Position numbers and translations under genes: made by a program | Notes under the pieces: generated by a model | Seen by the model: only the letters and a program-made list of their open reading frames with translations | What the model was told of the DNA's origin: nothing | Databases searched by the model: none | Shown here: piece after piece, positions 2,040-32,803 of the stretch | Layout of the letters: each line of letters begins with the position of its first letter | Numbering within the stretch: the first letter of the stretch is position 1 | IMG/VR virus record: IMGVR_UViG_3300027708_000122 | Coordinates: 1 to 44,389 of that record | Length of the DNA: 44,389 bases | Origin: a virus | Strand: one strand, 5' to 3'

Positions 2040-2118
2040 GGCAGCCCTTTGAGGGGCTGCCAATGGATGGATGTATAGGCACCACGGGAGTGGTGCTGGG
2101 CAAACGCTCAGCGTTTGC
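2040..2118 (-). repeat. Three-hairpin module, locus 1, directly after the HTH gene
   Basis: Reading the minus strand from the HTH stop codon: hairpin A at 2118-2100 (GCAAACG, loop CTGAG, CGTTTGC), linker CCA, hairpin B at 2096-2079 (GCACCAC, loop TCCC, GTGGTGC), linker beginning CTAT, hairpin C at 2061-2040 (GGCAGCCC, loop CTCAAA, GGGCTGCC) followed by CTTTG. Hairpin C could end transcription, though its T run is short. The same A-CCA-B-CTAT-C plan recurs at 32645-32723 with different but complementary stems. Confidence 0.8.
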
Positions 2119-2574
2119 TTAGCGAGGATTTGTGTAAATCCTTCTGCGCCTAATAGGCGCTGGATCATCATTGTCTTTCAATGCTTGGTCGATGTAGTAG
2201 AACCCTTCATCTGAATCAGGGTCATATCCAACGACGGCTTGTTCGCGTTCCAACATGTCCAACCATGACCGCAGCCGTTGCGATTCATCTATGTTCAACT
2301 TGTCAGGGGTCTGTTCTTTGCGACCATAAAGTCGCAACATACGGGCGGCATAATGCGTGCCGTGTTCATCTCTTACACGCCATGGCAAAGAGTTCCGGTA
2401 GCGGGGTTTGTTCTCGGCCAGTCCATACCGGACCATTGCTCCACTGATACTTGCCCGTGAAACCCTGATCCCGGTTTCTTGTTCATGTCGTGCGACCATC
2501 TCAGCGTGGGTGAGTCCTTCACGCTGCCACCTTTGGAGGGTAGTCTTGTCTGGTACAAGCGTTGGCGGAGCCAT
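2119..2574 (-). CDS. Helix-turn-helix DNA-binding protein
   Basis: 151 residues from ATG 2574 behind AGAAGG. The N-terminal third (KTTLQRWQREGLTHAEMVAR, then RVSRASISGAMVRYG) reads as a winged or simple HTH: a helix, a 'GLTHAEM' turn, and a recognition helix ending SRASISGAM. The middle holds PWRVRDEHGTHYAARMLRLY; the end is basic (RRRR). Proteins of this type are common in actinophages. It is transcribed divergently from the integrase and followed by the three-hairpin module. In a temperate phage without a visible CI-like repressor, it is the best candidate for an immunity or early regulator, but that is inference from position; a recombination directionality role is an alternative. Confidence 0.75.
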   Translation of the reverse strand: MAPPTLVPDKTTLQRWQREGLTHAEMVARHEQETGIRVSRASISGAMVRYGLAENKPRYRNSLPWRVRDEHGTHYAARMLRLYGRKEQTPDKLNIDESQRLRSWLDMLEREQAVVGYDPDSDEGFYYIDQALKDNDDPAPIRRRRIYTNPR

Positions 2575-2599
2575 GGAACACCTTCTCTCGTGTGGTTAC

Positions 2600-2637
2600 T
2601 TGACAAGAGTTTGGCATAGGTCCGTGTTATGTGTCAA
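2600..2637. promoter_or_regulatory. Inverted TTGACA / TGTCAA pair between HTH gene and integrase
   Basis: TTGACA at 2600-2605 (plus strand) and its complement TGTCAA at 2632-2637 face each other across 26 bases. Each could be a -35 box for one direction of this divergent region, giving overlapping promoters for the HTH gene and the integrase. Good -10 hexamers at the ideal distance are not obvious, so the site may instead be an operator. Confidence 0.35.
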
Positions 2638-2696
2638 ACAAAATGATCAAGATGAGCGAAAATTGAGTATCCCTTGGAATACCCTGCAAACCCGCA

Positions 2697-2731
2697 GGTC
2701 GTGTCCGGGGGGGGACTTGAACCCTAGCCAA
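2697..2731 (-). other. Candidate phage attachment site (attP core resembling a tRNA 3' end)
   Basis: On the minus strand the segment contains GGGTTCAAGTCCC followed by a C-run and GGACACG. GGTTCAAGTCC is a textbook tRNA T-arm and the rest resembles a 3' acceptor end, but the upstream half of a tRNA is missing. Tyrosine integrases often use tRNA 3' ends as target, with the identical core in attP beside the int gene; here the integrase starts 80 bases away. The exact core limits cannot be set without the host sequence. Confidence 0.55.
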
Positions 2732-2758
2732 CACAACATGCACTTGTTGCATGTTGTG
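2732..2758. repeat. 11-bp perfect inverted repeat beside attP
   Basis: CACAACATGCA (2732-2742) and TGCATGTTGTG (2748-2758) are exact complements separated by five bases. It lies between the tRNA-like core and the integrase start. It could be an arm-type integrase or excisionase site, an operator controlling int, or a hairpin in the int leader. Confidence 0.7.
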
Positions 2759-2811
2759 CAGGTCATAGTGTAAGGTGTGTCATGTTCCAATCTACCTATG
2801 AGGGAGCGAAC

Positions 2812-3831
2812 ATGCCCAGAGCAATGAACCTGATCGAAGCGAAAGCCGAATACCGTGGACACCTGACAGCCCGAGGGTTATCAAAGTCCACAATCAAGAA
2901 CCACATGCAAGTGTTGAACCTTGCTCAACAAGAGTGGGGAGATGTACGCATCTCAGCCATCACCGGATCACACATAGACCGACTGTTCCGGCGAGCCACA
3001 TGGGTCGCCAGCACACGGAACCTGTACCTCAGCAACCTGCGCTCGTTCTTCCAGTGGTGTAGGCGTGAGAACTACATGGCCCGTGACTTCGATCCCACGG
3101 CTGGGTGGAACAACCTGACCGTGCCACGGCGAGACAAGATGCGCCTGCCATTGGCTGAGTTCCCAGCACTACTCGATGCGTGTAAACACCCACGGGATCG
3201 GATGCTGTGTGCTCTTGGGATCTACACGTTCTTGCGAGGGGGAGAGATCGCTACCTTGCAGATCAGTGCTCTCAACCTTGAGCGGTACGAATTGAATATC
3301 TATAGGCACAAGACACAAGAAGAAGATGTGCTACCGGTATCACTTGAGTTGGCCGCTGAGTTTGAACGGTACTTCCGGTGGTACAGGACAAACCAGAACA
3401 CACCACACTTACGCCACGAATGGTATCTAATCCCATCAAAGGCTCCAAACCCAACACGATACAACCCTGTCACCCATCGCATTGAAGTGTCAGGTGAGTT
3501 AGCACCATTGCGTCCGACGCGGAAGGTGTCTCACCCATACCGATCCGTTCAGAGGGCGCTGGTTGTGTTGGGCTACGACCCTCTGGGCGAGGGCGAACAT
3601 ACATTGAGACGAAGTGGGAGTCGGGCACTCTTCGATACTCTCCGTGATCAGGGATACGACGGAGCGTTAATGCGTGTCAGTTCAATGTTAGGACACAAGG
3701 ACACACGGGTAACGGAACGCTACATTGGGCTTAGCCTTGAGCGTACGCAGAGGAATGAAATGATATCTGGGAACGTCATGTTCCCATCGTTGAGTCACGA
3801 AGATGCCACTGTTGTGGAGATTGCGAGATGA
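2812..3831 (+). CDS. int: Tyrosine recombinase (phage integrase)
   Basis: 339 residues from ATG 2812, preceded by AGGGAG; the open frame begins earlier but without a better site. An N-terminal SAM-like core-binding domain (LTARGLSKSTIKNHMQVL, ~18-100) is followed by the catalytic domain. The catalytic set is visible: R142 in LRGGEI, H263 and R266 in HTLRRSGSRALFD, H295 in LGHKDTR, and nucleophile Y304 in ERYIG. It integrates and, with a directionality factor, excises the phage. A tRNA-like attP candidate lies just upstream. It makes the phage temperate, at least in origin. Confidence 0.93.
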   Translation: MPRAMNLIEAKAEYRGHLTARGLSKSTIKNHMQVLNLAQQEWGDVRISAITGSHIDRLFRRATWVASTRNLYLSNLRSFFQWCRRENYMARDFDPTAGWNNLTVPRRDKMRLPLAEFPALLDACKHPRDRMLCALGIYTFLRGGEIATLQISALNLERYELNIYRHKTQEEDVLPVSLELAAEFERYFRWYRTNQNTPHLRHEWYLIPSKAPNPTRYNPVTHRIEVSGELAPLRPTRKVSHPYRSVQRALVVLGYDPLGEGEHTLRRSGSRALFDTLRDQGYDGALMRVSSMLGHKDTRVTERYIGLSLERTQRNEMISGNVMFPSLSHEDATVVEIAR

Positions 3832-4049
3832 GAATGGCTACTGTAAACCGGCTGGTGTGTGACATCGACCAGCGTGAAGACAACGTATTCACAGTTGTAA
3901 TCGACATCAACGGTCGTGGTGGTGTCGTAGACATGTGCGGTAGGTGCCGCTCGTCGGTCCCTGTGGACGAAGCGTTCGCCCGTGTCAGGCCAGAAACACG
4001 CAAGAGGAAACAGGAGTTCGTCAAGATTGAACTACCCCCACAACCATAA
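3828..4049 (+). CDS. 73-residue CxxC protein coupled to the integrase
   Basis: The start ATG overlaps the integrase stop (ATGA), so translation is probably coupled. The protein has an acidic, hydrophobic N-terminal half (LVCDIDQREDNVFTVVIDIN), a MCGRC pair and a basic C-terminus (RVRPETRKRKQEFVKIELPP). One CxxC pair plus C11 could bind zinc in a dimer. By position it might be a recombination helper or excisionase, but there is no recognisable excisionase fold. It is followed by terminator structures. Confidence 0.65.
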   Translation: MRMATVNRLVCDIDQREDNVFTVVIDINGRGGVVDMCGRCRSSVPVDEAFARVRPETRKRKQEFVKIELPPQP

Positions 4050-4089
4050 GGCAGTTACCACGACCATTAGACGCTCAATGGCATTTAAA

Positions 4090-4155
4090 GGCCCCTCAGG
4101 GGGCCGTAGAGACACGAATAGGCCCCCCCGGTGGTTTTATCCACCGAGGGGGTTT
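4090..4155 (+). terminator. Hairpin plus intrinsic terminator after the integrase operon
   Basis: Two stem-loops follow the 73-residue gene. The first is GGCCCC, loop TCAG, GGGGCC (4090-4105). The second pairs GGTGG with CCACC around TTTTAT, extended past a bulged A by a C-run and GGGGG (4123-4152), and is followed by TTT. It separates the rightward int operon from the leftward virion operon that ends at 4390. Confidence 0.75.
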
Positions 4156-4389
4156 CGTTGTTCTATGGAGCGTGTGGTGCTAAACGGGAATAGCGGGGTA
4201 GATATTCCTGTTTCGGGCCGTCTCACGCTACCGTTTCGGGATTGTGCACATATCAACACAATAGGCACAATGGTGCCGATGTTCACATTTTAGCACACTA
4301 TTCTGACTTGATTCACTACTAATAAGTACGAACCTGCCGGTTATGACCCGTCCAAAAGTCGCATAAGAGACCGTCCAAAAGTCGCATTG
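4156..4389. repeat. Gene-free convergent spacer with a 17-bp direct repeat
   Basis: No gene is seen between the int terminator and the end of the 639-residue gene. CCGTCCAAAAGTCGCAT occurs at 4348-4364 and 4371-4387, start to start 23 bases apart, the second copy ending two bases before the stop codon of the convergent gene. The repeat could be a binding site or a relic of slippage; the rest shows nothing I can name. Confidence 0.6.
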
Positions 4390-6309
4390 CTAGAGCAACC
4401 GCAACGTTGCCATCAACACACCACCAACATTGTCCTTCTCCCGAGACGGGGGAGTAGTACGTGTAAACGACAACTGCTCGATAAGAGCAGCACGGTTCTC
4501 ACCAGACGTATAGTCCTGCCACGTAATCACAGAGCCAAGATCCTCCGCAGACTCCAGAGCAGACAACCTGTCCCACGCTCCACCGTCATACCCACGAACC
4601 ATGCCATTGCGGTCACGCTCATGGTCGAAGCACAGCAAAGGAACCTGCACGATCCGAGTACGCTTTGGCGCAGGATACGCACGCACACTCATCGCGTTTA
4701 CAGTAGGCCGAGCAGACCCAGTACCCGTTAGACGCAGAGCCACGTACAGATCCCTCGTCGGGTTTGGTGCAGGGGCAGACAGTGAGAACTCACCATCAGT
4801 AGCCGATGAAGTTAACGTGCCAATGTTCACCCACGTAGACGGGTTACCCGTACCAGTCGTAGACGCATGAACCTCAATGGTCGTACCCGTGGGTACGTCA
4901 GCACGCAGAACGATAGACCGCCATGCTTTGAGTTCTTGAGTTGAATAGTTGATACGTCCATACTCAATCCACCCGTCAGTTGCATAAGCAACTGTTTGAG
5001 GTTGAGCGATCAGGCCGAAACCGGGAACCGTGTAATACACCTGAGACCCTGAGTAGGTCACAGAAGATGGAGCACTGCTACCAGAACCGTAAGCCTCTTG
5101 AGCGTAAGCGTACCGATACTTCTCAACGTCCACAGACAAGTCAATACGGTAGATACCGGGAGCACTGGACCCATCCAGAGCAGTCGTATCTGTACCACCA
5201 GTTGCGTACAGGTAACGGTCAACGCCTACGAAATCGTAGGCTCCACCAGCCGTGTAGACGATGATTGGGCCTACTGTAATAGTCGAATCAGCAGCGATTT
5301 CCGCTACTCTAATACCCGAACTGGTAGCAATAGCCAGATAATTGCCAAGGTACGAGTAGATATTCAGTACCTTTTCACCACGGGGCATCTCAGCGATAAC
5401 CACGGGGGCTGCTAGAGAGACCGTGCCAGCACTAGACGTGATGCTTGTCCGGTAAATAGCCGACACGTCATTGGCGTAGCCAGAGAAGTAGATGGCACCG
5501 GGGCCATCAGCGATACCTGTCCATACCCATGCAGTGTTCGGGTGATCCCACCCTGTTCCAGCAGAAGTCAGTGTGGTTGATGAAGGGTTCAACTCGTAAA
5601 TAGAATTGTTTACACACGTCATCAAACGTTGCTTAACCCAGCGAACCAAAGCCCTGCTAGACGTGGCCGCATAATCAGCAGTCAACATCTTCACACCCGT
5701 ACCCGTGGGCAAGGTGCCTTTCCAAATGTTGGTTGCCGTAGCAGCGTAGTAGTTTGTGCCATCAGTGGTGAGTGACAGGATGTTACCGGTCGCAGCCGTC
5801 AAAGAAACAGCGTTAACCGTTCCCGATGGAGTCACCTGAGACAGGCTGGAATCCGTTACATGTAACACACCATTAGTGGAACCGATACCCACCGAATACT
5901 GGGAAGTAGCAGACGTAGAACGCAACGTTGAAACACTCTTAGCAAGAGTGAACGATCCAGCAGTCCACACATCAACGTTCGCTGAACGGTAGAACCGGAA
6001 CCGGGCAACCTTCGGATCAACTTCCAAAGATTCCACAGCACGCTGACCAGCACCATAATGACCAGAGGCAACAGACCTCAGCCACACACCCTGATCTAGC
6101 GAGTTCTCACCGGGGTCACGTTCTTGGTCGATACGTTGGCGACGGAACTGAGACGTGGCCCGGTCCATCGTCCGAGTCTGATCCGTAGCAAACATGAAAG
6201 GCAAGCCACCAATGGAACAATCCCATGCGGCATCTGACGGGAAGTAGGCCGAACCAACCACAGTAGAAAGGTTGATTACCGGCCTTTCGGTAATATCAAA
6301 TCCAGCCAT
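4390..6309 (-). CDS. Beta-propeller-like virion protein, last gene of the structural operon
   Basis: 639 residues. An N-terminal ~100 residues (TQFRRQRIDQERDPGENSLDQ region) precede a long stretch of repeated short beta units (NGVLHVTDSSLSQVTPSG, TDGTNYYAATATNIWKG, YEYGRIN-type segments), looking like WD/propeller-type blades. A beta-sandwich-like segment follows near 470-560 (TTIEVHASTTGTGNPSTWVN), then a C-terminal TWQDYTSGENRAALIEQLSF module often seen in minor tail proteins. It follows the lysis genes, an unusual place for a tail component. Most likely a tail or appendage protein contacting the host surface; exact role unknown. Confidence 0.75.
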   Translation of the reverse strand: MAGFDITERPVINLSTVVGSAYFPSDAAWDCSIGGLPFMFATDQTRTMDRATSQFRRQRIDQERDPGENSLDQGVWLRSVASGHYGAGQRAVESLEVDPKVARFRFYRSANVDVWTAGSFTLAKSVSTLRSTSATSQYSVGIGSTNGVLHVTDSSLSQVTPSGTVNAVSLTAATGNILSLTTDGTNYYAATATNIWKGTLPTGTGVKMLTADYAATSSRALVRWVKQRLMTCVNNSIYELNPSSTTLTSAGTGWDHPNTAWVWTGIADGPGAIYFSGYANDVSAIYRTSITSSAGTVSLAAPVVIAEMPRGEKVLNIYSYLGNYLAIATSSGIRVAEIAADSTITVGPIIVYTAGGAYDFVGVDRYLYATGGTDTTALDGSSAPGIYRIDLSVDVEKYRYAYAQEAYGSGSSAPSSVTYSGSQVYYTVPGFGLIAQPQTVAYATDGWIEYGRINYSTQELKAWRSIVLRADVPTGTTIEVHASTTGTGNPSTWVNIGTLTSSATDGEFSLSAPAPNPTRDLYVALRLTGTGSARPTVNAMSVRAYPAPKRTRIVQVPLLCFDHERDRNGMVRGYDGGAWDRLSALESAEDLGSVITWQDYTSGENRAALIEQLSFTRTTPPSREKDNVGGVLMATLRLL

Positions 6310-6322
6310 GGGCTAGTCCTTC

Positions 6323-7102
6323 CTAGACGGGACGAGCAAGAGCCTTATACGTCTTCGGTCCAACAACACCATCAAAAGGCCACAATGAGATGTGTAAACG
6401 TTGATACCGCTTCACAGCAACAACAGTTGCCGGATCGAATACGCCACTAGGTGTGAGACCTAGGCCCTTCTGGATTGCCTTAACGTGATCGCCCTTAGTA
6501 CCAACACTGAACTTGCCGGGGAAAACCGGGATCGTGGGTACGTGGACTGGTTTCGTTGAAGGCTTCGTAGGAACCTTGACAGGTTTAAACGCAGGGGCAA
6601 CAGTCCCGTCAGGACGGATGCCGAGTTCCTTGATGACTGCTTCAACCTGAGCGATGCTCGTACCCGGCTTCAAAGCGAAGTGCATGGGGTCCCAATTACG
6701 ACTGGCAACGTAGTCGCCACCGCGTCTCTTATCCCCACCCCAAATAATGATTTTGTACTTCTTCTTCAATGCGACACACGCTGCGATCTGAGCGGATGAC
6801 ATAGTGCTCATACCACCATGCGGTCCCTGAGCGCCCTCATGGGCGCTATTGCAGTCAATGGCAGTCCCAGACGAATGATCCGACCACGATGCACTAGCCC
6901 TCGCTGGACGGTAATCATGCGACCACACTTCTTTAGGGCGCAGCGGGGCAACAGTCTTGTGATAGTCAGCAGCCAACGCAGCGAACAAAGGAGCCGCCAC
7001 ACTCCGCATAGACAGTTTAATCTTCGTACCCGGTACGACGATCTCTTTCAGGCGTGGATCTCCCCAATTCAGGACAGCCCACCCGTTTATACTCGCTGGC
7101 AT
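6323..7102 (-). CDS. Endolysin: M15 D-Ala-D-Ala carboxypeptidase-like domain plus peptidoglycan-binding domain
   Basis: 259 residues. The N-terminal domain carries the peptidase M15 zinc set: SDHSSGTAID (H76, D83) and WDPMHF (H141), the pattern of VanY / L-Ala-D-Glu peptidases that cut peptidoglycan stem peptides. A Pro/Lys/Thr-rich linker (~168-192) leads to a C-terminal PG_binding_1 type domain (VGTKGDHVKAIQKGLGL, then FDGVVGPKTYKALAR). No signal peptide is seen, so export would rely on the holin encoded just upstream, with which it overlaps by one base. It cleaves host cell wall at lysis. Confidence 0.88.
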   Translation of the reverse strand: MPASINGWAVLNWGDPRLKEIVVPGTKIKLSMRSVAAPLFAALAADYHKTVAPLRPKEVWSHDYRPARASASWSDHSSGTAIDCNSAHEGAQGPHGGMSTMSSAQIAACVALKKKYKIIIWGGDKRRGGDYVASRNWDPMHFALKPGTSIAQVEAVIKELGIRPDGTVAPAFKPVKVPTKPSTKPVHVPTIPVFPGKFSVGTKGDHVKAIQKGLGLTPSGVFDPATVVAVKRYQRLHISLWPFDGVVGPKTYKALARPV

Positions 7103-7335
7103 CAGATGCCCTCAGGATTCGAACCGACACCGTAAGCAGTGTCAGCCGGATTAATAGCACGGACGAGAGCAGTACCCGCAGCAATGAGGACAGCCTGACC
7201 GAGAGCGTTCAGGTCGATCGTTCCACCTGAGATGTTCCCAATCACATAGGAGACAGCAGCGGCGAACGCTGCACCCACAACGACGTTAATGATTGTTCGG
7301 ATCGGTGCGGGAATGGATTCCCAAAATTGTGACAT
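7102..7335 (-). CDS. Holin-like membrane protein
   Basis: 77 residues. Two hydrophobic stretches are visible, IINVVVGAAFAAAVSYVIG (~14-32) and ALGQAVLIAAGTALVRA (~44-60), with short polar ends, as in small two-span phage holins. The stop overlaps the endolysin start, so the pair is coupled. Its ribosome site is GGAG followed by ATGTAAAC and the start codon, one of several genes where the recurrent TGTAAAC motif fills the spacer. It would form membrane lesions to release the endolysin. Confidence 0.82.
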   Translation of the reverse strand: MSQFWESIPAPIRTIINVVVGAAFAAAVSYVIGNISGGTIDLNALGQAVLIAAGTALVRAINPADTAYGVGSNPEGI

Positions 7336-7346
7336 GTTTACATCTC

Positions 7347-8195
7347 CTAAGCAGAAGCAAGCGAGAGAGCGGATTGGAGAGCAGACCGGAAGCCTGCACT
7401 GGTGTACGTGGCACCACTGACCGTGGCTACGTTGCTGGTGGACCCGCCGACAGCCTCGTCGATCAAAGTCCCATTGCCAGCATTGTTCATGCTGGGAGTT
7501 GTTGAAACATAAAACTTGCCAATCGACTTCGATGTCGGATCAGCAGCAGTGAACGTGGGAACAGTGATCCCCGTGATCTTCCCACCGAGAGTCGTAACTG
7601 ACAGACCGATCTGGTATTGGATTCCCTCACCGGCCACGTTGATTGGAGCATTACCCGCCCAAGTTCCGTCTTTGATTACGGTTGGTGTAGGAGAAGTAGT
7701 GGCACTTGGAGACACAGATGGTGTAGGCGAAGCACTCGGGGCAGCAGTCGATATGACCGGAGTGGCTTTCACCGTTGCGGCGTTCGTTTGGTCCTTGAGG
7801 ACTGTCGTGCTGCATTTGTAAACCCACACTTCTCCTTGGTTCAAGTTTGGGTCAGCATCATTCCCAGTAGGCCCAGTGATCGGTGAGCATTTGTCATCAG
7901 TGATTCGTATGTTGCTGTAATCCGTGTTGCCCGTGTTCTTCAACGTGTACGTGTACGTGATCTTTGACCCAGCAGTTACAACGCTCTTATCTGAGGAAGT
8001 AACAAGAGACAAGGTTGGGTTCCGCACGTACACGGACGTGTTCGTGGTGACGCTCACGTCGGGAGCGGTCTCAAGGTTCGTATCAGGGGGGAGTGGAGCG
8101 GAGTCTGTGGCACCGGCTGATTGGACAGCACCGATGATTGCGAGGCCGAGCACAGTACCGGATGTAAACGCTACTGCTTTAATCTTGGGGATCAT
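7347..8195 (-). CDS. Secreted protein with DUF11-like domain and C-terminal FMN-binding domain
   Basis: 282 residues. An N-terminal Sec signal peptide (basic start, then SGTVLGLAIIGAVQSAGA) is followed by a DUF11/CARDB-type beta domain (SKITYTYTLKNTGNTDYSNI, ~75-130) with two Cys, a Pro/Ser/Thr linker (~143-168), and an FMN_bind-type domain: GTWAGNAP, the middle ISVT-type strands, and VSGATYTSAGFRSALQSAL at the end. In that family the Thr/Ser of the SGAT motif receives covalent FMN from the host ApbE transferase. Start ATG 8195 has AAAGG at good distance; ATG 8201 is the alternative. It sits between a membrane gene and the holin. A redox cargo gene delivered by the phage or a surface-exposed lysis factor are both possible. 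Confidence 0.78.
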   Translation of the reverse strand: MIPKIKAVAFTSGTVLGLAIIGAVQSAGATDSAPLPPDTNLETAPDVSVTTNTSVYVRNPTLSLVTSSDKSVVTAGSKITYTYTLKNTGNTDYSNIRITDDKCSPITGPTGNDADPNLNQGEVWVYKCSTTVLKDQTNAATVKATPVISTAAPSASPTPSVSPSATTSPTPTVIKDGTWAGNAPINVAGEGIQYQIGLSVTTLGGKITGITVPTFTAADPTSKSIGKFYVSTTPSMNNAGNGTLIDEAVGGSTSNVATVSGATYTSAGFRSALQSALSLASA

Positions 8196-8454
8196 CCTCA
8201 TCCTTTATTAAGTGTTCGATTACGAGGTCTAACTGGCGTTCGATACGGTCCACACGACCGTGTAGGTCTTTTAGTGATTGACCGCCGTTAGCGTTTGGTT
8301 GAATCTGTGATGTGCGTCTTTCAATCTCGCTCATAAGTGGACGCATAACGAGGTAGCGTCCAGCAGCGGCGAAAGACGTGATGATGGTAATGAGAACAAT
8401 GAGTACACCCCCGTAATCATTGAGTGCATTTATTATTGTTGGAGTCGTATACAT
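8179..8454 (-). CDS. Single-span membrane protein with coiled coil (second lysis-type membrane protein)
   Basis: 91 residues. A transmembrane segment near the N-terminus (YGGVLIVLITIITSFAAAGR, ~14-33) is followed by a charged helical stretch with heptad-like spacing (LKDLHGRVDRIERQLDLVIE). It ends in an acidic tail. This topology fits a holin of the one-span type, an antiholin or a spanin-like factor. It overlaps the start of the FMN-binding-domain gene and is part of the lysis block. Confidence 0.72.
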   Translation of the reverse strand: MYTTPTIINALNDYGGVLIVLITIITSFAAAGRYLVMRPLMSEIERRTSQIQPNANGGQSLKDLHGRVDRIERQLDLVIEHLIKDEDDPQD

Positions 8455-8457
8455 GGC

Positions 8458-10476: not shown

Positions 10477-10483
10477 TTAAACC

Positions 10484-11359
10484 TCAGCGGGTGTAGTGGA
10501 CACGGACGGGATACTGCTGGTTTAAACGAGCAGCCTCTTCTTGAACGCGGATACGGAACTGTTGATACAACTGCCTCGATAAGGCAGCAGCAGATGTTTG
10601 AGATATGCGAGCGTTAGCAGCGAAAGAAGCATCAGCGGCGATGATTGCCGAGTTCGGGATCTCCACGTAAGGCAAGAGACGAATGATTGAACCGAGGCGG
10701 ATCACATCAGAACAAGAATCTGGTAATCCTGTGGACAGGATTGTGGACGCATCAGTAGCGAACGTTGATGGGGGAGACGAGTAAGAAATGTATGCCGTGT
10801 ACCCGGTCGGTAACGAATCCCAGATCACGATTTGATCTTGATACTTGTCGTACTTCCAACGTCGGATCGGTGCATACTCAAGCGAGTAAGGGTTCCGGTA
10901 CGAGACATCCATGATGTCCCCAACCTGTGGGGTTGGGGTTAACGAGTACGAGGTTTGTCCTGCGATAAGGACCTGTGTGGCACTAGCCACCTGCCACAAG
11001 TCAGGGTAGAGAGCGTTGACTGTTTCGTTGATCGCTCGTTTAATCGCCGCTCGGGGAAACAGCGGAGAGTTCACAGCCTTCACGTTGATCGCGTGAGCCA
11101 CAGCCGTAGTCCCACCATAGCCACGACCAAACGGTGCAACAGTCAGAATGTTGCTGGACCTGTCAATCGTTGTCACGTACACCAGTTCGTCTTCGATCTC
11201 TACAACACCGTGAGAGAAGTTAGACGCATCGGCTACAGGGATCGACGTGGCTGAAGAAGTGATAGCCGCCGTAGTGTACGAAGCCTGCTCCTGAGTCTGG
11301 GTGTAACCAGACAGTTCAAGAGTGATCGCATTAGTCAGATCAGTGAGGCTCAGACTCAT
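10484..11359 (-). CDS. Head-tail adaptor / tail tubular-like protein
   Basis: 291 residues. An N-terminal beta insert (TSIPVADASNFSHGVVEIED) resembles the start of the 672-residue fibre. The rest has helical segments typical of connector or adaptor proteins: FPRAAIKRAINETVNALYPD, a central beta part (YRNPYSLEYAPIRRWKYD), and a C-terminal helix (LSRQLYQQFRIRVQEEAARL). The motif NETVNALYPDLW is commonly seen in phage adaptor proteins that sit below the portal. It overlaps the 113-residue gene by four bases (ATGA). Function is inferred from pattern and place. Confidence 0.68.
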   Translation of the reverse strand: MSLSLTDLTNAITLELSGYTQTQEQASYTTAAITSSATSIPVADASNFSHGVVEIEDELVYVTTIDRSSNILTVAPFGRGYGGTTAVAHAINVKAVNSPLFPRAAIKRAINETVNALYPDLWQVASATQVLIAGQTSYSLTPTPQVGDIMDVSYRNPYSLEYAPIRRWKYDKYQDQIVIWDSLPTGYTAYISYSSPPSTFATDASTILSTGLPDSCSDVIRLGSIIRLLPYVEIPNSAIIAADASFAANARISQTSAAALSRQLYQQFRIRVQEEAARLNQQYPVRVHYTR

Positions 11360-11697: not shown

Positions 11698-11711
11698 GTT
11701 TACATTACCCC

Positions 11712-13184: not shown

Positions 13185-13187
13185 TGT

Positions 13188-19000: not shown

Positions 19001-19032
19001 TGGGCCGGTCGATCAGAGGGTGTCTAAGGGGC

Positions 19033-25100: not shown

Positions 25101-27849
25101 GATCAAGTTCATGCCCATACGAAACAATGTTATGCACCTTCGGTGCAGGACCATTCGGACGGACACGGAACTTACGGTTCGCATCACCACGGAGCATCGT
25201 CCGGCTGCGCTGAGCCGTCAAGTATTCTTCCGACCGTGTTTTCCAAACGCGACCAACCAACTCTTCAACTGTGTACCCGTTCATCGAATGTTCGATAGCG
25301 GCATCAAGAAGATTCTGATAACCCTCACGCAACTTCGCAGGGATCTCAGAAGGACGCTCAACAAAAACTTCCGACGATGACGGATCAGACTTGCGTGGTT
25401 TGTTGTACTGCCATGTTGTCGGATTCTTATCTACAGTGGTCTGACGAGTATGGTTCACGTTCTCAAAGTTCAACGGTTCATACGGATCATCCATACGCAA
25501 CTTAGCGACCATTGAATGAGGCGTAGTGTCAATGAAATCACCCTCGATGGTGGTGAAGTCACTTGTTCCCCGGTGATACGTTTGACGAGCCGTAGTCTCG
25601 TTACGCAGACGTGCCATATCGGCAGCAATCTTCCGCAACTCCAAAGCCCGTTCGCGTTCCTTTGGCGTCAACGGCACATGGTCTGGCCGACGAGACAAAG
25701 GCAGATAGTCTGCTGCGTTCTCAGTCTGGTAACGCTCAAGAATGTCACGGTCAACAGACGAAAACTTAAAATCAGCAAGTTTAAGTTGAGCCTCCCGCAA
25801 GTTGCGGAGGTTCTTCTCTGCGACACTCAAACCCGCATATTTCAAGGCTTCTTCTCGGTAAGCCGCCGCTGCACTTAGACGTGTACCTCTGGCAACACCA
25901 ATGTTCTCGATCGTATGGTTGTACGTGTTCTTCGTGAACTGGAGGAGGTTATGTTCGGCAAGAGCCGACAATACGGTGGCATGTGCCATGCCTGTAGCAG
26001 CAATAGATAAGCCAGCCTCAGCCAAGTTACGCATCGTGTAACCAAGACGAAGAAGGACCGACGTTTTCCAAATGTCGTTAACTACGTCAGCAGCGCCAGT
26101 CACCATGTCCTTGGTCTGGCCGATACCCCTGAGCATAGAATTGTCATGGCGAGCAAGAGCCTCAGCCAGTTGACCCATATCCATCAGGGGGAGGGCATCA
26201 ACGTTCTCACGTTCAAGGAGAGGAAGTTTCGCGTACACACTATTATCGCCAAGGGCGTACGAGACAAAGTTCTTCGTCTTGTACTGGGCCATGGCAGCCG
26301 CACGGCGAGTGTTACCTGCTTCCCACAACGAACGGGCATGTTCAGGGTCAAGACCCCTCTTCGCCGAGATTAGTTCAAGGCCACGCTGTTCAATGAGTTG
26401 AGCAATCTGAGACTTCTCAGTGTTTGTTTCAGCGGCAAGGTACTGGTTGATCCACTCGCGGCCTTCGCCGCTGGACACCATGTGTCCACCTGTCTCACGG
26501 TTAATGTCGCTGACAAGGGCTGAGATTTCTTCAACAGAATCTGAATCGTTGAAGTTAACCCAACCACTGCCACGCTCTTTGCCCATGAAGTCCACGATTG
26601 CCATGATCGGGTGGATGCGACTGGGCTGAGAAAGAAAGACTCGCGGTTCTCTACGACCGATCTGCTCGCCAAGACGATTAGCAGTTCTGGCAGCCTTAGC
26701 GTTCTGAAAACCGACAGCATAATCAGTACCAAAGCCACGCTGAACAACCTGACGTTTCGCTGCCTCATCGAGGGTGCGTTGCCACGCACGGGACAAGGAA
26801 CCGTTTTCATCAGTCAAGTGTGCAATAAAGGTAGCGTCAAGGGTTTCCTGAGAGCGGGTTCCGTTTACAGCGGCTTCAAGCCCCAGCCTGCGATCCGCAG
26901 CAACTGCTCCAGAGATTTGTTCAGCCTCAACAGAGAGACGTTCGTAAGCGGTCTCCCAGCCGGGAGTGCGGCTGAGCACATGCAGAACATCACCAGCCTG
27001 CTGAGCAGTCGTTGTCCCGCCAAGAAGGTTGGAGATGAGAGTACGGTCAGAACCTTTTTGCTTTTTCACCCATGGATGGTTCATCGCATAGGCCGCATCA
27101 TTGTCTGCAAAGTTCTGAATCATCTGAGACGTGTGCGTCATATCAGTTTTTTCAGTTGCCTTGGTGACACTCTTGTCGATGAGTTCACCAAAACTTTTAG
27201 CAGTTACTTGAGTAGCACCCTGACTCAAAGAGATGGAAGCCGCTTGGGTTAGTTCTTTACCAGAGTAGGCAAACCGGGCAGCCTTACCAGCAGGACCAAC
27301 TAGGAGCGTTGGATCAGCAATCATTGTGTTAGTAAAGTCGATGGACCCTGTGAAGTATTCTGCTGGCCCTGAACCGAAGGTACGGTCCCGCTCTTCTGGA
27401 GTCATCTCAGCAGCAGAATCATTGCCTTTAAACAATGTGTTGAACATGCTTTGGCCGAGAGTGAACGACTGAAACGGATCACGGTTCCCACGCTGGATAG
27501 CGCCGAAAGCACCTTCAAAGTTTGTGTCCCAGTTGGTACGCCAATCCGGTGAAGATCCTTGATCGTGAAGTTCTGCCCAACCAAATCCAGCACCAGCAGC
27601 AGTGTACGAAGCAGCAGTACCAAGGTTTTCGAGCAGGTGAGCACCAAGGTTCACAGGAGCGTGGAGAGCCGAACCAAAAGCAGAAAGGATCTGCCTGTTG
27701 GTCGAATCATCCTTCGGCTTACCTAGCGCATCAGACACGCCACTGTAAGCAACACTGAGATCATGCCACGCATCGGTAAGACCACTGAGGTCTCCAACCT
27801 TGCTGACAGTTTCTTGAGCCATATCACCAAGAGTGTCCAGAAAACTCAT
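22156..27849 (-). CDS. Giant internal/ejection-type virion protein (1,897 residues)
   Basis: The largest gene. The N-terminus is helical and membrane-friendly (LGAHLLENLGTAASYTAAGA). Other parts include a helical block around an ISPFYAAWENVMKRWGSFA segment (~1,450), typical of very large polyvalent phage proteins, and mixed alpha/beta segments (IGRIILPDSQWGTTVRVIKN; QIGNNMSGYDKVVVHKNDPE) that could be enzymatic. Long charged coiled-coil-like regions lie between (KREQARADHAEAVFRRQQTE). No protease or methylase motif can be assigned with confidence. It replaces the set of smaller core proteins of T7-like phages and probably forms the DNA-injection conduit. It overlaps both neighbours by 1-4 bases. 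Confidence 0.75.
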   Translation of the reverse strand: MSFLDTLGDMAQETVSKVGDLSGLTDAWHDLSVAYSGVSDALGKPKDDSTNRQILSAFGSALHAPVNLGAHLLENLGTAASYTAAGAGFGWAELHDQGSSPDWRTNWDTNFEGAFGAIQRGNRDPFQSFTLGQSMFNTLFKGNDSAAEMTPEERDRTFGSGPAEYFTGSIDFTNTMIADPTLLVGPAGKAARFAYSGKELTQAASISLSQGATQVTAKSFGELIDKSVTKATEKTDMTHTSQMIQNFADNDAAYAMNHPWVKKQKGSDRTLISNLLGGTTTAQQAGDVLHVLSRTPGWETAYERLSVEAEQISGAVAADRRLGLEAAVNGTRSQETLDATFIAHLTDENGSLSRAWQRTLDEAAKRQVVQRGFGTDYAVGFQNAKAARTANRLGEQIGRREPRVFLSQPSRIHPIMAIVDFMGKERGSGWVNFNDSDSVEEISALVSDINRETGGHMVSSGEGREWINQYLAAETNTEKSQIAQLIEQRGLELISAKRGLDPEHARSLWEAGNTRRAAAMAQYKTKNFVSYALGDNSVYAKLPLLERENVDALPLMDMGQLAEALARHDNSMLRGIGQTKDMVTGAADVVNDIWKTSVLLRLGYTMRNLAEAGLSIAATGMAHATVLSALAEHNLLQFTKNTYNHTIENIGVARGTRLSAAAAYREEALKYAGLSVAEKNLRNLREAQLKLADFKFSSVDRDILERYQTENAADYLPLSRRPDHVPLTPKERERALELRKIAADMARLRNETTARQTYHRGTSDFTTIEGDFIDTTPHSMVAKLRMDDPYEPLNFENVNHTRQTTVDKNPTTWQYNKPRKSDPSSSEVFVERPSEIPAKLREGYQNLLDAAIEHSMNGYTVEELVGRVWKTRSEEYLTAQRSRTMLRGDANRKFRVRPNGPAPKVHNIVSYGHELDLTKHANIPDDLKEILNIHSARPRETAAKRKNKPSHKEWVQAESWNDPEVAAKLTAYAKENGIGRIILPDSQWGTTVRVIKNNVAGYGGRGALASVDAEIERVMGEAASEGYAGVVRRTGRDATSADRRANRKLRADARRYGKTVNEWDVSKKYSRDKIAQMASDDGLQAIKDAVRKREQARADHAEAVFRRQQTEARIADVHANDRTFGKKGIPVTLDDGRVIHVTAFGGSQGEINWTRTHGDVAFVNGLVGDGQQIGNNMSGYDKVVVHKNDPEYFSSWANVLNFHWRDPTVAGRDGLDPMARLVHEGSTPQEVEAWLKGDGRGYADEMGWTDADIPHAAATMDEAFHQYVPEGIRDAWAEGTVTSDMLQRAVDPRDLPEIVGLRVPQSREFRDAMTIRNAAEASTRRLMHALGAAPETALARHPLYVAAFRRDLDKAVREAELEKGGKLSLEEVNTLAKSSREEARLIVNKTLFTLTRRTGASQSFRLISPFYAAWENVMKRWGSFAVNNTENIAYGLMLKQRFMNNATLVNNKTGERGDPYNDSAQDLSMVFPWKVGGQNVNIPVASMDVIFQGQPLNPGIGPFVALPLSKIVAERPEAEGVLNWAFPAGYPRDALSTWLPASINKLRSMHNQDQAYMNDMNRIAMHEMILFQQGKRSDLPSQSELTEKTNQLYSLKTLTNLLSPTSVQYTNDVNYYQQLYRKYQTMYPDGNDADQKFLEDNPDYFVVMEPLSKNQFGATATQQSVSNIKKYSDLAAIASASGDPKMVGWLANYGQGPYDQKNFSSASYNWQLTHSPVPGGTNFRTQKNPQEVMQDALVNRGWIRFNQAMDEITANYQARGLNTADPAINKAMLSGAVAFLNQDKSNAAWYEEFKSSDRARFEKRADFFQQALADPAFGGDHKDDQTIQAIGSFLDLRSQMSNALNDVKANGGSNRLTAKSNYQMAQDYLQQIVALKNQNLGFSEWYDRYFTNDPVVL

Positions 27850-28277
27850 AGAGTTCCCCGCAAATACCGGATGGCATTACGGGTCGCAGGACTCGTTGTT
27901 GGGAGGTCAGCGAGTTTCAACAATGTTGGTAACGCGGCACGCAACTGTAAACGTGGATCATCTTGAGAAGCCGGGACTACTGAGGGGCCGGGGCCGGGAC
28001 CAACAGGCGAACCCGCAGTCACTGGCTCTTCCGGCCTCTCAGTAGGTGCCCCCATAGGGGTGACGGGTGGAGCAGTCGGCGCGGTGCTTGTGGGGGTTGG
28101 CGTCGATGCAGCAGCCATCGGAGCCGAACGCTGAAGGTCCATCATTTGCTGGCCTTCACCGTAGGGCAAACCTGAAATGTATTGAGCGGGTTGACCATCA
28201 GTACGTTGTGACATTTTACCGGGACCACTCACAGGAGCAGGCTTAGAAGGCTTCCGGTAACCACCATGTTCAGCCAT
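27846..28277 (-). CDS. Pro-rich structural-operon protein
   Basis: 143 residues from ATG 28277, overlapping the previous gene by 8 bases; AAGGAG lies upstream. The middle is a Pro/Thr/Ala linker (ASTPTPTSTAPTAPPVTPMG) and the C-terminus forms helices (LQLRAALPTLLKLADLPTTS, ATRNAIRYLRGTL). The stop overlaps the giant gene start by four bases. It resembles small head-interior or portal-associated proteins, but no family is recognised. Confidence 0.65.
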   Translation of the reverse strand: MAEHGGYRKPSKPAPVSGPGKMSQRTDGQPAQYISGLPYGEGQQMMDLQRSAPMAAASTPTPTSTAPTAPPVTPMGAPTERPEEPVTAGSPVGPGPGPSVVPASQDDPRLQLRAALPTLLKLADLPTTSPATRNAIRYLRGTL

Positions 28278-28515
28278 CCTCTTCAACTCCTTCTGTCATA
28301 GTCTCAATAGCAAGAGAAACGTCTACCGAGAACTCTTCAAGTTCTACAAGGTAGTTATTGTGTTGTTGGGTTATAACTTTGAAACCGTCTATAACCCGTG
28401 CAGCCTCACCAACAACGTTGGCAAGAGAGTGCAGGAGTAAGACGGCAAGGTCTAGCCGGGTTACACGGGATGGGGGTAACGGGTCACCCTCGTCATCAAG
28501 CCATCGAGTTCGCAT
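28270..28515 (-). CDS. 81-residue acidic helical protein
   Basis: The N-terminus MRTRWLDDEGDPLPPSRVTR is followed by two helices (LDLAVLLLHSLANVVGEAAR and NYLVELEEFSVDVSLAIETM). Acidic overall. It lies between the 50-residue gene and the Pro-rich gene and overlaps the latter, so it is part of the virion operon. A head-completion or assembly factor is possible; unrecognised. Confidence 0.62.
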   Translation of the reverse strand: MRTRWLDDEGDPLPPSRVTRLDLAVLLLHSLANVVGEAARVIDGFKVITQQHNNYLVELEEFSVDVSLAIETMTEGVEEDG

Positions 28516-28538
28516 AACCCGGCCTTTCCTCGTTGTGG

Positions 28539-28691
28539 TTAGTGCGCTCCGGGAGTCGTACCGCGTACGCCGGGGGTGTAGATAGGAGCAACGATTCCGT
28601 TTGCAATCGGGTCGGGGCCGTATCCACTGGTTGGCATCGGTTCTGCGGGGGAGGACGAAGCCTTTCCACCATTCATTACTGATTCAGCCAT
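28539..28691 (-). CDS. 50-residue Pro/Gly-rich peptide downstream of the portal gene
   Basis: ATG 28691 with GGAGG at good spacing opens a frame of MAESVMNGGKASSSPAEPMP, TSGYGPDPIANGIVAPIYTP and GVRGTTPGAH before TAA. Strong ribosome site, short spacing to the portal stop (10 bases) and to the 81-residue gene support it. The sequence is flexible and Pro/Gly-rich with no clear fold. It is probably a small virion-associated peptide. Confidence 0.65.
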   Translation of the reverse strand: MAESVMNGGKASSSPAEPMPTSGYGPDPIANGIVAPIYTPGVRGTTPGAH

Positions 28692-28701
28692 GATTCACCT
28701 C

Positions 28702-30558
28702 CTAACCTGCTGGGCGGGATCTTGATACGGAAGCCCTCAATGAGGGCGCACCTGCGGAAGTAAGACCGGCTAGAAGGTTTTGGATGTCCCCACCAGAACC
28801 TTGTGGTGGCCCACCGGGTAGACCGGGCATAGGACCGCCACCGGGGGGAGCACCAGAGGCGTCAGGCACCATCCCAGAACCCGACATGTCCATCCCCGGC
28901 TGCTCAACCCCCGGCGACATTTCACCCGCCTCAGACGTTTCCGTTGCCTCCTGTGCTGGAGGTTCAAACGCTTCCAAGACGAGGGCTTCTAGGGTTTGGC
29001 CCTTGCCACGACCGTCAATGATTTGAGCGATCTTTGTAATACCTGACGTCGGGTCCATGCCCTGTTGAACCATGGCCGGTAACGACTGTGCATAGGCTTG
29101 TATGAACTCTTTGAGCGACTCACGCAAGTCCTCAATATCTGTCTTGGCTTCTTCCTCCGTCGCATTAACGGCGAAAGGCATTTGACGACGTAGGAAGTCA
29201 CGACTAATCAACTTGTCACCACGGGCTTGAAGGCCAAAGACGAGAGCACGGTTCGGGTCAAGACCTGCCATGAGACCGTATTGGACATCAACAGTGTGCT
29301 CACCCTTAATGTCCCGAGCAGCCTTGTAGGTCAATTCATACTTGACCCCATCTAGGTCGCCACGGAGTTTCTTTTCCATGTCAGGCCAGATGGCCTCATC
29401 GAGAGCGAAAGCCATCGACAGTAGGTCTGTGAACGCATCGGCGAAGAGTGCCTGTCCAGTACGAATCTGAGTATCAAACCCTGACATGAGGGCTTCCACA
29501 CCACGTCCAGTAACGATGCTTCCATCGACCTGACCCGTGCGAGGACCGGGGTAACGTGAACCCTTGGCTAGATCCTGATCCATACTGGACTGTTGGGCGA
29601 ACACTTCGCGTGGCACATCGAGACGTACCCGACCGATTTTCTCTGGGTTCGCTGAACGAAGTACAGCATCAGGCCCAATGTTTAGTTCGACAACATCCTG
29701 CGGAAGAGCAATCGGGGCTTCCACCGATTTCGTCGCGGCTTCAAGTGTGAGCAACGCGAACCGGGATTTAGCCACCTGCACTGCAAGCACGTCATCGAAC
29801 TGTCCTCTAGGGAGGTCCGTGACACCGGGGCGCTCGATGATGCGAGCAAGACATTTACCAAGAGGATTCCGTGCGCTCTCAAGATTAAAGCCGCCTCCTT
29901 GCGGCAAGAACAAAATATCGTGATCCTTATCGTGATACCGGACCACCTCGATGCGGTGTAAACCACTCGCATAGTTCGTTTGAACGAACCGTTCAGCCTC
30001 TGGGTAGGCAGCAATCAGTTCGTCACGATCCCACATACGTGACATGAACACGCACTGGGTGATACCCCAACGGTTCTTTACGCCATACGAACCCATGGGG
30101 GAGTAGAACTGGATACGCGGCATGTTGTCATCAAGGTCTGCTTCGACCATAGCGATGACATAACCGAACGATAAGAACCAGTCTGCTGCTTTAAACATCT
30201 GGATCTGCAACTTGCTATGGCTTACATAGCCGTTAACGATCTTTGTACGCTTCTCAGCGACCTTACGTTGATTGTCTGTGGTCATCGCTGTTGAAGCACA
30301 GTTAAACGCAGGTAGGGGTGCTAATACTTCAGCGATATCACGGGCAGCCACATCAACCATGTTCGCCACAATGCCCTGCGAATAAGGGCCATCAGGGAAC
30401 AAATCACGGTACACGTCACTCATACGACCATCACGGACAGCCATAACATCGTTCATTTTGGCTTGACGGACGGTGCTCTTGTCACGTAGCCGGTAGTACA
30501 GGTTACGAATATCAGGGAAATTGAAGGCAACACCACCCGGCATAATGTTCATATCCAT
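28702..30558 (-). CDS. Portal protein (head-tail connector)
   Basis: 618 residues. The N-terminal half (RDLFPDGPYSQGIVANMVDV, AADWFLSFGYVIAMVEADLD, RIQFYSPMGSYGVKNRWGIT) and helical centre (LFADAFTDLLSMAFALDEAI) fit portal proteins. The C-terminus ends in a Met/Gly/Pro-rich flexible tail (GGGPMPGLPGGPPQGSGG). It lies one gene downstream of the terminase, the standard order. It forms the dodecameric DNA channel at one capsid vertex and docks the terminase during packaging. Confidence 0.82.
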   Translation of the reverse strand: MDMNIMPGGVAFNFPDIRNLYYRLRDKSTVRQAKMNDVMAVRDGRMSDVYRDLFPDGPYSQGIVANMVDVAARDIAEVLAPLPAFNCASTAMTTDNQRKVAEKRTKIVNGYVSHSKLQIQMFKAADWFLSFGYVIAMVEADLDDNMPRIQFYSPMGSYGVKNRWGITQCVFMSRMWDRDELIAAYPEAERFVQTNYASGLHRIEVVRYHDKDHDILFLPQGGGFNLESARNPLGKCLARIIERPGVTDLPRGQFDDVLAVQVAKSRFALLTLEAATKSVEAPIALPQDVVELNIGPDAVLRSANPEKIGRVRLDVPREVFAQQSSMDQDLAKGSRYPGPRTGQVDGSIVTGRGVEALMSGFDTQIRTGQALFADAFTDLLSMAFALDEAIWPDMEKKLRGDLDGVKYELTYKAARDIKGEHTVDVQYGLMAGLDPNRALVFGLQARGDKLISRDFLRRQMPFAVNATEEEAKTDIEDLRESLKEFIQAYAQSLPAMVQQGMDPTSGITKIAQIIDGRGKGQTLEALVLEAFEPPAQEATETSEAGEMSPGVEQPGMDMSGSGMVPDASGAPPGGGPMPGLPGGPPQGSGGDIQNLLAGLTSAGAPSLRASVSRSRPAG

Positions 30559-30564
30559 GTGGTG

Positions 30565-32463
30565 CTATCCAATCTGTCGGAAAAGTTGTTGAACTTCATA
30601 ATCCATAACGTTCACGCTCTGCCGACGACTGATGTCATACCGGGTAGCGAAGTTGTTCTTAATGTGTGACGAGTTGTACGAGGTCATAGCCACGATCCGG
30701 TCCCTACAGGCCAGTTCGGTGAACCAGAACGCCATCACCGTGTCAGTTTTCTGACTCTTGGGAGCGTCTGCGTGCCACGTAACTAACTGCTCGATGAACG
30801 ATTTAGCCATCTCATGGTCCGTGGTACGAGGCAGTTCAACGAGTTGGTTACCGTTTTCCCACCCTTGAAACAGCATCGTGAGGCTCGTAACACCATAATC
30901 AGAGTCCCACTTGGAGGCTCCGGTGAAGTGTTCCCTGAGAACAGCACCACGACCCGCTAGATACTCTTTGACCTCACGGTCCTGAGTGAGCATGGTCTGG
31001 AAAGCGTTCTTTTCAATACGCCACTCGGTAATGTTGTACTTGTCTGTCCAATCACGGATCAGAGCACGAATATCGTCAGGGGTCATCCCTGTCTTATTCC
31101 AAATATCGAGCACGTACCGCTTCTGAGTGCGGATGTCTAGCCCAATACAGCAAGCACCAACATACCCAGCAGGACTAGCAGGGTCCAGACCAGCCATAAC
31201 GAGCAAGCCATCCATGCCCTCTTCCCTGTTACCGGGCATACCACGGGGGATAAGACCGGGGCGACGAGCCATATTCATAGACGCTTGCACAGCGTCAACG
31301 GAGAACAACTCCGTACCAGACACTTGTTGCTGCTGGTACACCCTCGCCCAATGGGAGGGAGACATGCGAGCACGCTTCTTATGGAGAGCAGGCCCATCCC
31401 ACTTCGGGAACAAGCCATCAGCATCAGGTTCCCTGAATGCTCCCTTAGTAATCTCAGGCATGTTCGACTTAGGCCATAAGGTTTCCCACTTCAACGGGTC
31501 ATCATCAGCCTGTAAGACGGCTGGCATAGCCAGATACGTCCATGGGGATTCACCGTCAGGGTAATACTCGGCCTTGCGTAACTCGGAGTACAGGTCACGG
31601 GCTGCGAGACGAGTACCCACGACGAGTAACTTGCCACCAGCACCGATACGGGACAAGACCTCAGTCTGAATCCAGTCGATCTGCTTGGCGTACTCATGAG
31701 CGTTCGTATTGTCCACACAGTCGTCAAGGACGATCAGGTCAGCACGGGCACCATAAATGTGTCCACGTACACCCAGAGCCTCCGCTGTGGGGTCTTTCTC
31801 CCCAGAGTCACGGATATCCCCAGAAACGTAGATACGGTCCTGAGACCACGACTCAGAGTTCTTATCAAACCCACCGGGGGGACCATAAGCGATGATCAGG
31901 TCCTGATACTTGGGATGGGTGAGACGGTTCTTAATGGCGGAAAGCATTTTCCGTGCCATAGCCTGAGTCTTAGAAACGATCAAGATACGAACGTTCGGAT
32001 CAGTTGCAATCCGGTAGGTCACATAGTTGATGGTGATGGAGGTGGTTTTGGAATGTTCTGGGGGCAGGTTAGCGATGATGAGGTCAGGATCAGACTTCTC
32101 ATAGACAATCCCACCCGGCAGCCAAGAAGGATCTCGGCCTTCAAGGACGTCCACGATATTTCCGATATGAGGGAAGACGCGCGCACCCAGATACTTCTCG
32201 GAGAACGCGCCAAACCCGACATCCTCACCCTTCTGGTGGCCGGTCTTTCGGCCCATGCGGATACGGTCAACGGCAACTGAGAACTCGGTGTCCGTTTTCT
32301 TCCACAACTCGTACGTTTTGATGGAGCGTCCAGCGAAATCACATGCTTGCTGGTTCGTGTACCCGTCACCGATCTTCTCCAAGAAGATCCGCTTCGCTTC
32401 CACCACTGAATGTCTCTTGGCATTAGATCGCTCGAACGCCCGTGCGTCTCGCTCCTGTGCCAT
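30565..32463 (-). CDS. terL: Terminase large subunit with N-terminal HTH
   Basis: 632 residues from ATG 32463. An N-terminal HTH-like segment (GYTNQQACDFAGRSIKTYEL, ~35-55) is of the type usually found in small terminase subunits; no separate small subunit gene is seen. The ATPase has LPPEHSKTTS as a divergent Walker A and DLIVLDDCVD as Walker B. The nuclease part has MAGLDPASPAGYVGACCIGL and YGVTSLTMLFQGWENG. It cuts and pumps DNA into the prohead. The frame is open back to an ATG at 32559, whose ribosome site would lie in hairpin H2; I prefer 32463 (GGA at 7 bases). Confidence 0.87.
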   Translation of the reverse strand: MAQERDARAFERSNAKRHSVVEAKRIFLEKIGDGYTNQQACDFAGRSIKTYELWKKTDTEFSVAVDRIRMGRKTGHQKGEDVGFGAFSEKYLGARVFPHIGNIVDVLEGRDPSWLPGGIVYEKSDPDLIIANLPPEHSKTTSITINYVTYRIATDPNVRILIVSKTQAMARKMLSAIKNRLTHPKYQDLIIAYGPPGGFDKNSESWSQDRIYVSGDIRDSGEKDPTAEALGVRGHIYGARADLIVLDDCVDNTNAHEYAKQIDWIQTEVLSRIGAGGKLLVVGTRLAARDLYSELRKAEYYPDGESPWTYLAMPAVLQADDDPLKWETLWPKSNMPEITKGAFREPDADGLFPKWDGPALHKKRARMSPSHWARVYQQQQVSGTELFSVDAVQASMNMARRPGLIPRGMPGNREEGMDGLLVMAGLDPASPAGYVGACCIGLDIRTQKRYVLDIWNKTGMTPDDIRALIRDWTDKYNITEWRIEKNAFQTMLTQDREVKEYLAGRGAVLREHFTGASKWDSDYGVTSLTMLFQGWENGNQLVELPRTTDHEMAKSFIEQLVTWHADAPKSQKTDTVMAFWFTELACRDRIVAMTSYNSSHIKNNFATRYDISRRQSVNVMDYEVQQLFRQIG

Positions 32464-32486
32464 GTTTGAATCCAGACTGCCTATAG

Positions 32487-32803
32487 GCAAACGCTTCGCG
32501 TTTGCTAAGCCATGGCGTCTGTAAGTTAGCCATGGCAGATGAGTTAGGGTCGTTACCATGCACCCTTATAGGGTGCAATCATCCGGGTTTTAACCCGGTT
32601 CATTGGTTAAACCACATGTAGCAAACTTTTTAGTTTGCCTATAAGCAATCGTCTGAGACGATTGCCCAGCACCCCTCTCGGGGTGCCTATCTATTAACTA
32701 TTATGGGCGGCTTAAGGCCGCCCTTTTAATGTATTTATTAGGCAATTCCTTGGGGGAATTGCTGGATAGTGTGAGGGAGCGTTCGGTCGCTTCGCTCCCT
32801 CAC
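32487..32803. repeat. Array of nine consecutive hairpins upstream of the terminase
   Basis: Perfect stems in order: H1 32487-32505 (GCAAACGC, 8 bp), H2 32559-32577 (TGCACCC), H3 32583-32598 (CCGGGTT), H4 32621-32638 (GCAAACT), H5 32645-32665 (GCAATCGTC, 9 bp), H6 32669-32686 (GCACCCC), H7 32705-32723 (GGGCGGC), H8 32742-32762 (GCAATTCC), H9 32770-32803 (about 11 bp, loop 11). H1, H4, H5 and H8 share ends GCAA...TTGC but differ inside, with the partner arm changed to match. H4-CTATAA-H5-CCA-H6-CTAT-H7 repeats the linkers found at 2040-2118. On the minus strand the loops are mostly purine-rich (GAA, GAGA, AAAA). Confidence 0.85.
32705..32729 (+). terminator. Intrinsic terminator-like hairpin H7, plus orientation
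   Basis: GGGCGGC and GCCGCCC (32705-32711, 32717-32723) followed by TTTTAA form a textbook terminator on the plus strand. No plus-strand gene lies upstream of it before position 4049, so its job is not the usual one; it could shield the terminase leader from read-through or be part of the hairpin module. Confidence 0.65.

Follow-up and report, generated by a model that had tools for sequence, protein, structure and literature searches.

Clustered hairpins and paired hairpin elements described previously

Clustered hairpins near the stop codon make up about two thirds of the predicted termination units in a study of 13 genomes (PMC8355165), and compensatory stem changes have been documented for terminators of Bacillus cereus, in which stem pairs switch on both sides and the hairpin is kept (PMC5381666). 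A different arrangement is found in the temperate phage HK022, whose genome carries two similar two-hairpin elements, putL and putR, in two places. These elements are about 70 nt long and conserved in sequence, are read in the sense direction in both early operons, and contact RNA polymerase (PMC9378689).

Here we describe a phage genome in which two adjacent hairpins, A and B, are present at two distant loci, each followed by a third hairpin, C. The bacterial terminator clusters stand behind a stop codon, which is true of locus 1 but not of locus 2. The switching of stem pairs resembles that in B. cereus, although there the comparison is between orthologous terminators of different strains, whereas here it is between two loci of one genome and among phage leaders. 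Unlike the put elements, the two A-B copies lie in opposite orientations relative to their predicted transcripts and have a private sequence, such that the copies are alike but are not found in relatives. The closest counterparts of locus 2 are leaders that precede the terminase genes of Streptomyces phages in the Beephvirinae, including Manuel, Immanuel3 and FlowerPower, whose terminases are 43–47% identical to that of our phage. These leaders share with it a TATATATA..GGGG site and a pair of hairpins that covary, both located ahead of the terminase gene, but they have fewer hairpins and other sequences. Their hairpins are not annotated in the phage records, and PMC11536984 makes no mention of them.

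The phage genome

The window analysed is the entire 44,389-nucleotide stretch of IMG/VR record IMGVR_UViG_3300027708_000122. It encodes terminase, portal, major head, tail, endolysin, integrase, repressor, replication and WhiB-like genes, and is thus a temperate-type phage genome. Both ends are bridged by near-identical contigs, which indicates that the genome is circular or permuted. The terminase is 75% identical to that of one relative (L004) and about 60% identical to those of many environmental contigs. Its relatives at 43–47% identity are Streptomyces phages, mostly Beephvirinae, and therefore the host is probably an actinobacterium. Among sequenced bacteria, terminase relatives were found at three Streptomyces loci, which are very GC-rich and uninformative regarding the A-B module. 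Rfam and tRNA searches of the window returned no match. Beside the integrase gene, at approximately 2705–2760, there is a stretch similar to the 3′ portion of a tRNA gene (GGTTCAAGTCCCCCCCCGGACACGA, minus strand) that adjoins an 11-bp palindrome, and this site is a candidate attP.

Two copies of a compensated hairpin pair

The original prediction was of a three-hairpin module repeated at two loci, and its coordinates and the individual hairpins A, B and C are correct at both. At locus 1, on the minus strand, hairpin A occupies 2100–2118 (GCAAACGC TGA GCGTTTGC), hairpin B occupies 2079–2096 (GCACCAC TCCC GTGGTGC, followed by CTATA) and hairpin C occupies 2040–2061. The homology is narrower than the proposed module. 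It comprises hairpin A, the linker CCA, hairpin B and the bases CTAT, spanning 46–48 nt for A-B (2120–2075 on the minus strand versus 32643–32690 on the plus strand), whereas hairpin C has no sequence homology between the loci and is a similarly placed GC hairpin. When locus 1 is locally aligned with the rest of the genome, the top hit is locus 2 with a score of 33, compared with 19 for the next best hit and at most 15.5 for 12 shuffled locus 1 queries.

The stem of hairpin A has 8 bp at locus 1 and 9 bp at locus 2, with two pairs doubly changed and one pair inserted, and the stem of hairpin B has one double change (A-T versus C-G). The copies therefore differ by three compensated base pairs and one inserted pair, and no pair is broken. 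If the A-B alignment is correct, a hand estimate puts the probability of this compensation arising by chance at about 1e-4 (three changed positions, out of 15, falling on exact partners with the right base; 1/455 × 1/27). The covariation that was originally proposed thus stands, but the companion claim of fixed loops and linkers does not hold for loop B, in which one base differs (TCCC/TCTC). The folding energy is −44.3 kcal/mol for locus 1 (z −5.5) and −160 for the complete locus 2 region (z −8.8), and none of 200 and 100 shuffles, respectively, folds as well.

A search of 94 related loci with a covariance model built from the two copies yielded a single match, a weak one to hairpin A alone in L004 (E 0.009). 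A hairpin-A pattern search over viral contigs gave 26 matches, none of which is a paired hairpin, and querying phage records with the DNA of the locus 2 region gave no match. Genome-specific sharing between the repressor end and the leader was likewise absent from the seven relatives that have both loci, so exchange or trans pairing between these sites is not a general trait. Going by these searches, A-B is a private sequence of this phage, and the notion of a single conserved three-hairpin module is not borne out. Judged by the refuting condition set originally, a lack of further copies in relatives, the module fails. What recurs in relatives is not the module itself but the presence of hairpins at both positions, as described below.

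Locus 1 is a putative terminator cluster behind the repressor gene

Hairpin A of locus 1 begins right behind the stop codon of a repressor gene (2119–2574, minus strand; phrog_3929, E 2e-25), as had been noted originally. Downstream, and in the same direction, is an operon whose first gene encodes an exonuclease (710–1792, minus strand; phrog_1870). A GC-rich hairpin close behind a stop codon is an attribute of intrinsic terminators, and hairpin C, which carries a T-rich tail (TTTGTGGTTT), is terminator-like. This T tract is weak, with five T residues in the first eight positions, and the corresponding number in relatives is 3–5. The locus 1 region holds seven terminator-like sites, which is mildly above the 3.9 ± 1.9 expected by chance.

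All seven relatives with a homologous repressor have a strong hairpin within about 140 bases past the stop codon, and the stems of these hairpins are unrelated. Two of them (L104 and L107) have a hairpin whose TGA loop is the stop codon, then a CCTATA linker, a second long hairpin and a T-rich tail, which is the plan of locus 1 minus hairpin B. In two relatives, G006 and G016, hairpins are clustered at the end of the repressor gene as well as in the terminase leader. Given these hairpins in relatives, the known clusters near stop codons (PMC8355165) and the stem compensation known for terminators (PMC5381666), locus 1 is most simply read as a putative terminator cluster that precedes the early operon.

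Two further features were observed in this region. The sequence CGACACGCCG is present at 1957–1966, between the repressor gene and the exonuclease operon, and one or two copies of it occupy the same place downstream of the repressor in several of the relatives L101–L107. It is a candidate operator for this repressor family. In L103, about 30 GA repeats directly follow the repressor stop codon, and these repeats are absent in its close relative L101.

Locus 2 lies within a predicted terminase leader

Locus 2 is a divergent intergenic site, and neither side has a gene that ends there. The original statement that there is no gene to end is valid if the plus strand is considered. On the minus strand, however, this region is the predicted 5′ leader of the gene for the terminase large subunit (30565–32463; phrog_38; start codon at 32463 set from relatives). 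In addition, the locus consists not of three hairpins but of a run of nine (32487–32803), located in the approximately 340-nt leader of this predicted late operon. A late-promoter-like TATAAG (32803–32808, minus strand) stands before GTGAGGGAGCG and is unique in the window, as is TATAAGTGAGGGAGCG, which is located upstream of the hairpin array. From this arrangement we infer that transcription would run leftward from about 32800 into the terminase gene.

In the order of this putative minus-strand transcript, the first hairpin (GTGAGGGAGCG...CGCTCCCTCAC, 32771–32803) is at the predicted transcription start and corresponds to hairpin P1 of the leaders of relatives. The second (gcaattccc CCA aggaattgc, 32742–32762) is in the position of P2. 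Next are the hairpins originally noted on the plus strand: C (32705–32723), which has a T run on the plus strand only, B (32669–32686) and A (32645–32665), which on the minus strand is followed by TTATAGG as in leaders of relatives. There are additional hairpins at 32621–32638 (gcaaact AAAA agtttgc), 32583–32598 (ccgggt TAAA acccgg) and 32559–32577 (tgcaccct ATA agggtgca). The last one before the terminase gene (32487–32505) has the same stem as hairpin A of locus 1 with a different loop. Read on the minus strand, in the direction of the terminase gene, none of the leader hairpins of the window is followed by a T tract.

Farther upstream, at approximately 33040–33065 on the minus strand, is a block (TTGACCGGGGGGCATTTTAAT) similar to TGACCCCAGGGTTTTTAAA. 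Nearly all relatives, including the Streptomyces phages, have a block of this kind upstream of their late promoter, and these blocks are candidate packaging (cos/pac) sites. A palindrome, GTCTCAC TAT GTGAGAC, is also located upstream of the terminase gene in the window (33149–33165) and in L046, where the orientation of the loop is reversed.

Terminase leaders of relatives covary

The region upstream of the terminase gene was compared in 73 loci, of which 46 are non-redundant, and most of these 46 have a TATA..GTGAGGG site and hairpins. The TATA site often stands behind GTGTCC...GGACAC. In the best-sampled clade, the leader has P1 at the predicted transcription start, followed by P2, P3 and P4, with the last located just before the start codon. 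In an alignment of 26 environmental phages that was made without structure information, 98.7% of the P1 and P3 cells are paired, compared with 92.2 ± 0.6 in shuffles. There are 32 double-change cells versus 7.7 in shuffles, and slid controls are at most 59% paired. The leaders of 10 Streptomyces phages, aligned separately, have two covarying hairpins (93.1% paired versus 80.5). The P2 and P4 stems vary widely while retaining pairing, and P4 takes the form of 10 different stems in 34 distinct segments, although these listings are illustrative, being biased towards pairing by the search for pairing through which they were found. A helix suggested by RNAalifold (67–69/86–88) was rejected, as it results from misalignment of P2.

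A covariance model of the clade leader, termed R2, was built without the window and was then used to search it. There is a single match up to E 5, located at 32811–32678 on the minus strand (E 0.0043), and its score of just 19.3 bits, which is similar to the lowest-scoring reverse-strand matches of other loci, indicates that the window leader is a distant member. The P3 motif (CCTAACCTWCGG) is not found in the leader of the window, where the P3 block is unaligned in the R2 match and a GC hairpin occupies its place.

Unlike the freely changing stems of the other leader hairpins, the sequence of P3 is strongly kept, and the motif is present in 108 stretches of viral contigs. Among the 80 stretches examined, the terminase gene is on the same strand in 78 and the other two end too soon. 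Thus, every one of the 78 testable contigs has terminase downstream of the motif, in nearly all cases at a distance of 66–68 nt. The possibility that P3 masks a ribosome binding site was set aside because the terminase start is about 50 nt further on. The loops of the leader hairpins mostly have 3–5 bases, and in relatives at least five T residues in eight bases are found beside only 2 of 82 hairpins on the terminase side and 2 of 82 on the opposite side.

Four relatives (L005, L054, L055 and L008) are without the standard leader. L008, a 45% relative, has about 17 perfect hairpins arranged nearly end to end over 600 bases upstream of its terminase gene (6572–7164). In the L006 leader there are repeats in the linkers (ACATGTTAAC-type words) and not in the hairpins, which is the reverse of the usual picture. 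In L044, L058, L073, L090 and other environmental relatives, an inverted repeat (GTGTCC...GGACAC) is located directly upstream of the late-promoter TATA site and is a candidate activator or repressor site. No Rfam match was found in the window or in the leaders of 19 related loci, and a literature search for such terminase leaders found nothing relevant.

Possible functions and alternative explanations

We consider it fairly probable that a single explanation covers these observations, wherein locus 1 is a terminator cluster of the repressor gene, locus 2 is part of a cis-acting late leader, and the A-B stretch was copied from one to the other. The repressor transcript would end at locus 1, in a hairpin cluster whose last member is terminator-like, and transcription would thereby halt before the exonuclease and replication operon. 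The hairpins of locus 2 would work in cis within the late mRNA, where they would most likely protect the 5′ end and the long untranslated leader against nucleases and early termination. The small loops, the rarity of T tracts (2 of 82) and the free variation of the stems argue for a physical role of this sort, for example protection from nucleases or termination factors, over sequence recognition. A possible exception is P3, the sequence of which is conserved. Copying within one genome, between two sites that would both favour compact hairpins, is the simplest account of the shared stretch, and the stems would since have drifted with compensation. Because the copies are oppositely oriented relative to their most likely transcripts, they do not support a dedicated two-copy RNA gene.

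The T-rich tails present on both C hairpins in the A-B-C direction, and the fact that this direction faces an operon at both loci, might instead suggest insulator terminators, with locus 1 shielding the exonuclease operon from read-through and locus 2, on the plus strand, shielding the rightward operon. We regard this as unlikely because no gene at all precedes locus 2 on the plus strand, the leader model indicates the minus strand, and T tracts beside the leader hairpins of relatives are as scarce on one side as on the other. It is somewhat harder still to favour a regulatory RNA that alters RNA polymerase or its own termination, as in late control of the put-like or Q type, in which A-B would serve as a put-like element of two hairpins, present in two copies. 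The two-stem put RNAs at the two early operons of HK022 (PMC9378689) offer a parallel, and the leaders do begin at the predicted transcription start and have a strongly kept P3. However, put functions in early operons, A-B is private to one phage and oppositely oriented in the two transcripts, the leader hairpins are without T tracts, and their stems vary freely, as a fixed polymerase contact would not.

The inversion of one copy relative to its likely transcript also means that the two RNAs would be antisense. The two would be complementary over A-B. Their cofolding yields about 17 kcal/mol over separate folds, versus 3.5 for a plus-strand control, and thus an RNA from the repressor 3′ end could in principle pair with the late leader and keep late genes down in the lysogen. 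We judge this the remotest of the possibilities: seven relatives with both loci lack genome-specific inverted similarity, and selection for trans pairing would hold the stems identical, whereas the stems are precisely what differs. There is also very little reason to view the whole array as a functionally silent mutational by-product, with the compensated changes arising by template switching between hairpin arms. Perfect palindromes are known to stay perfect through arm-to-arm correction, such correction during replication could produce compensated changes without selection, and the hairpins of the array do resemble decayed copies of one another. However, hairpins with different sequences recur at both positions in diverged phages, the sequence of P3 is kept as well, and an association with terminase would not be expected of a by-product. 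The hairpins at both positions appear to be under structural selection, as was originally proposed, and the hairpins of relatives support this more than the two copies do.

The duplicate is real and structural selection is supported, and the eye-catching duplicate can now be told apart from a conserved feature that underlies it, the covarying late leader, which is the more interesting object. This apparently uncatalogued RNA leader is found in about a hundred contigs of environmental phages, where it precedes the packaging genes, and the version carried by Streptomyces isolates is testable at the bench. We think it rather doubtful, but worth stating, that the terminase leaders (P1–P4, with the sequence-conserved P3) represent a new structured RNA class that licenses late expression through RNA polymerase or ribosomes. 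If true, this would constitute an RNA-based late-gene switch in actinobacterial phages, of which the window would carry a distant, hairpin-enriched version.
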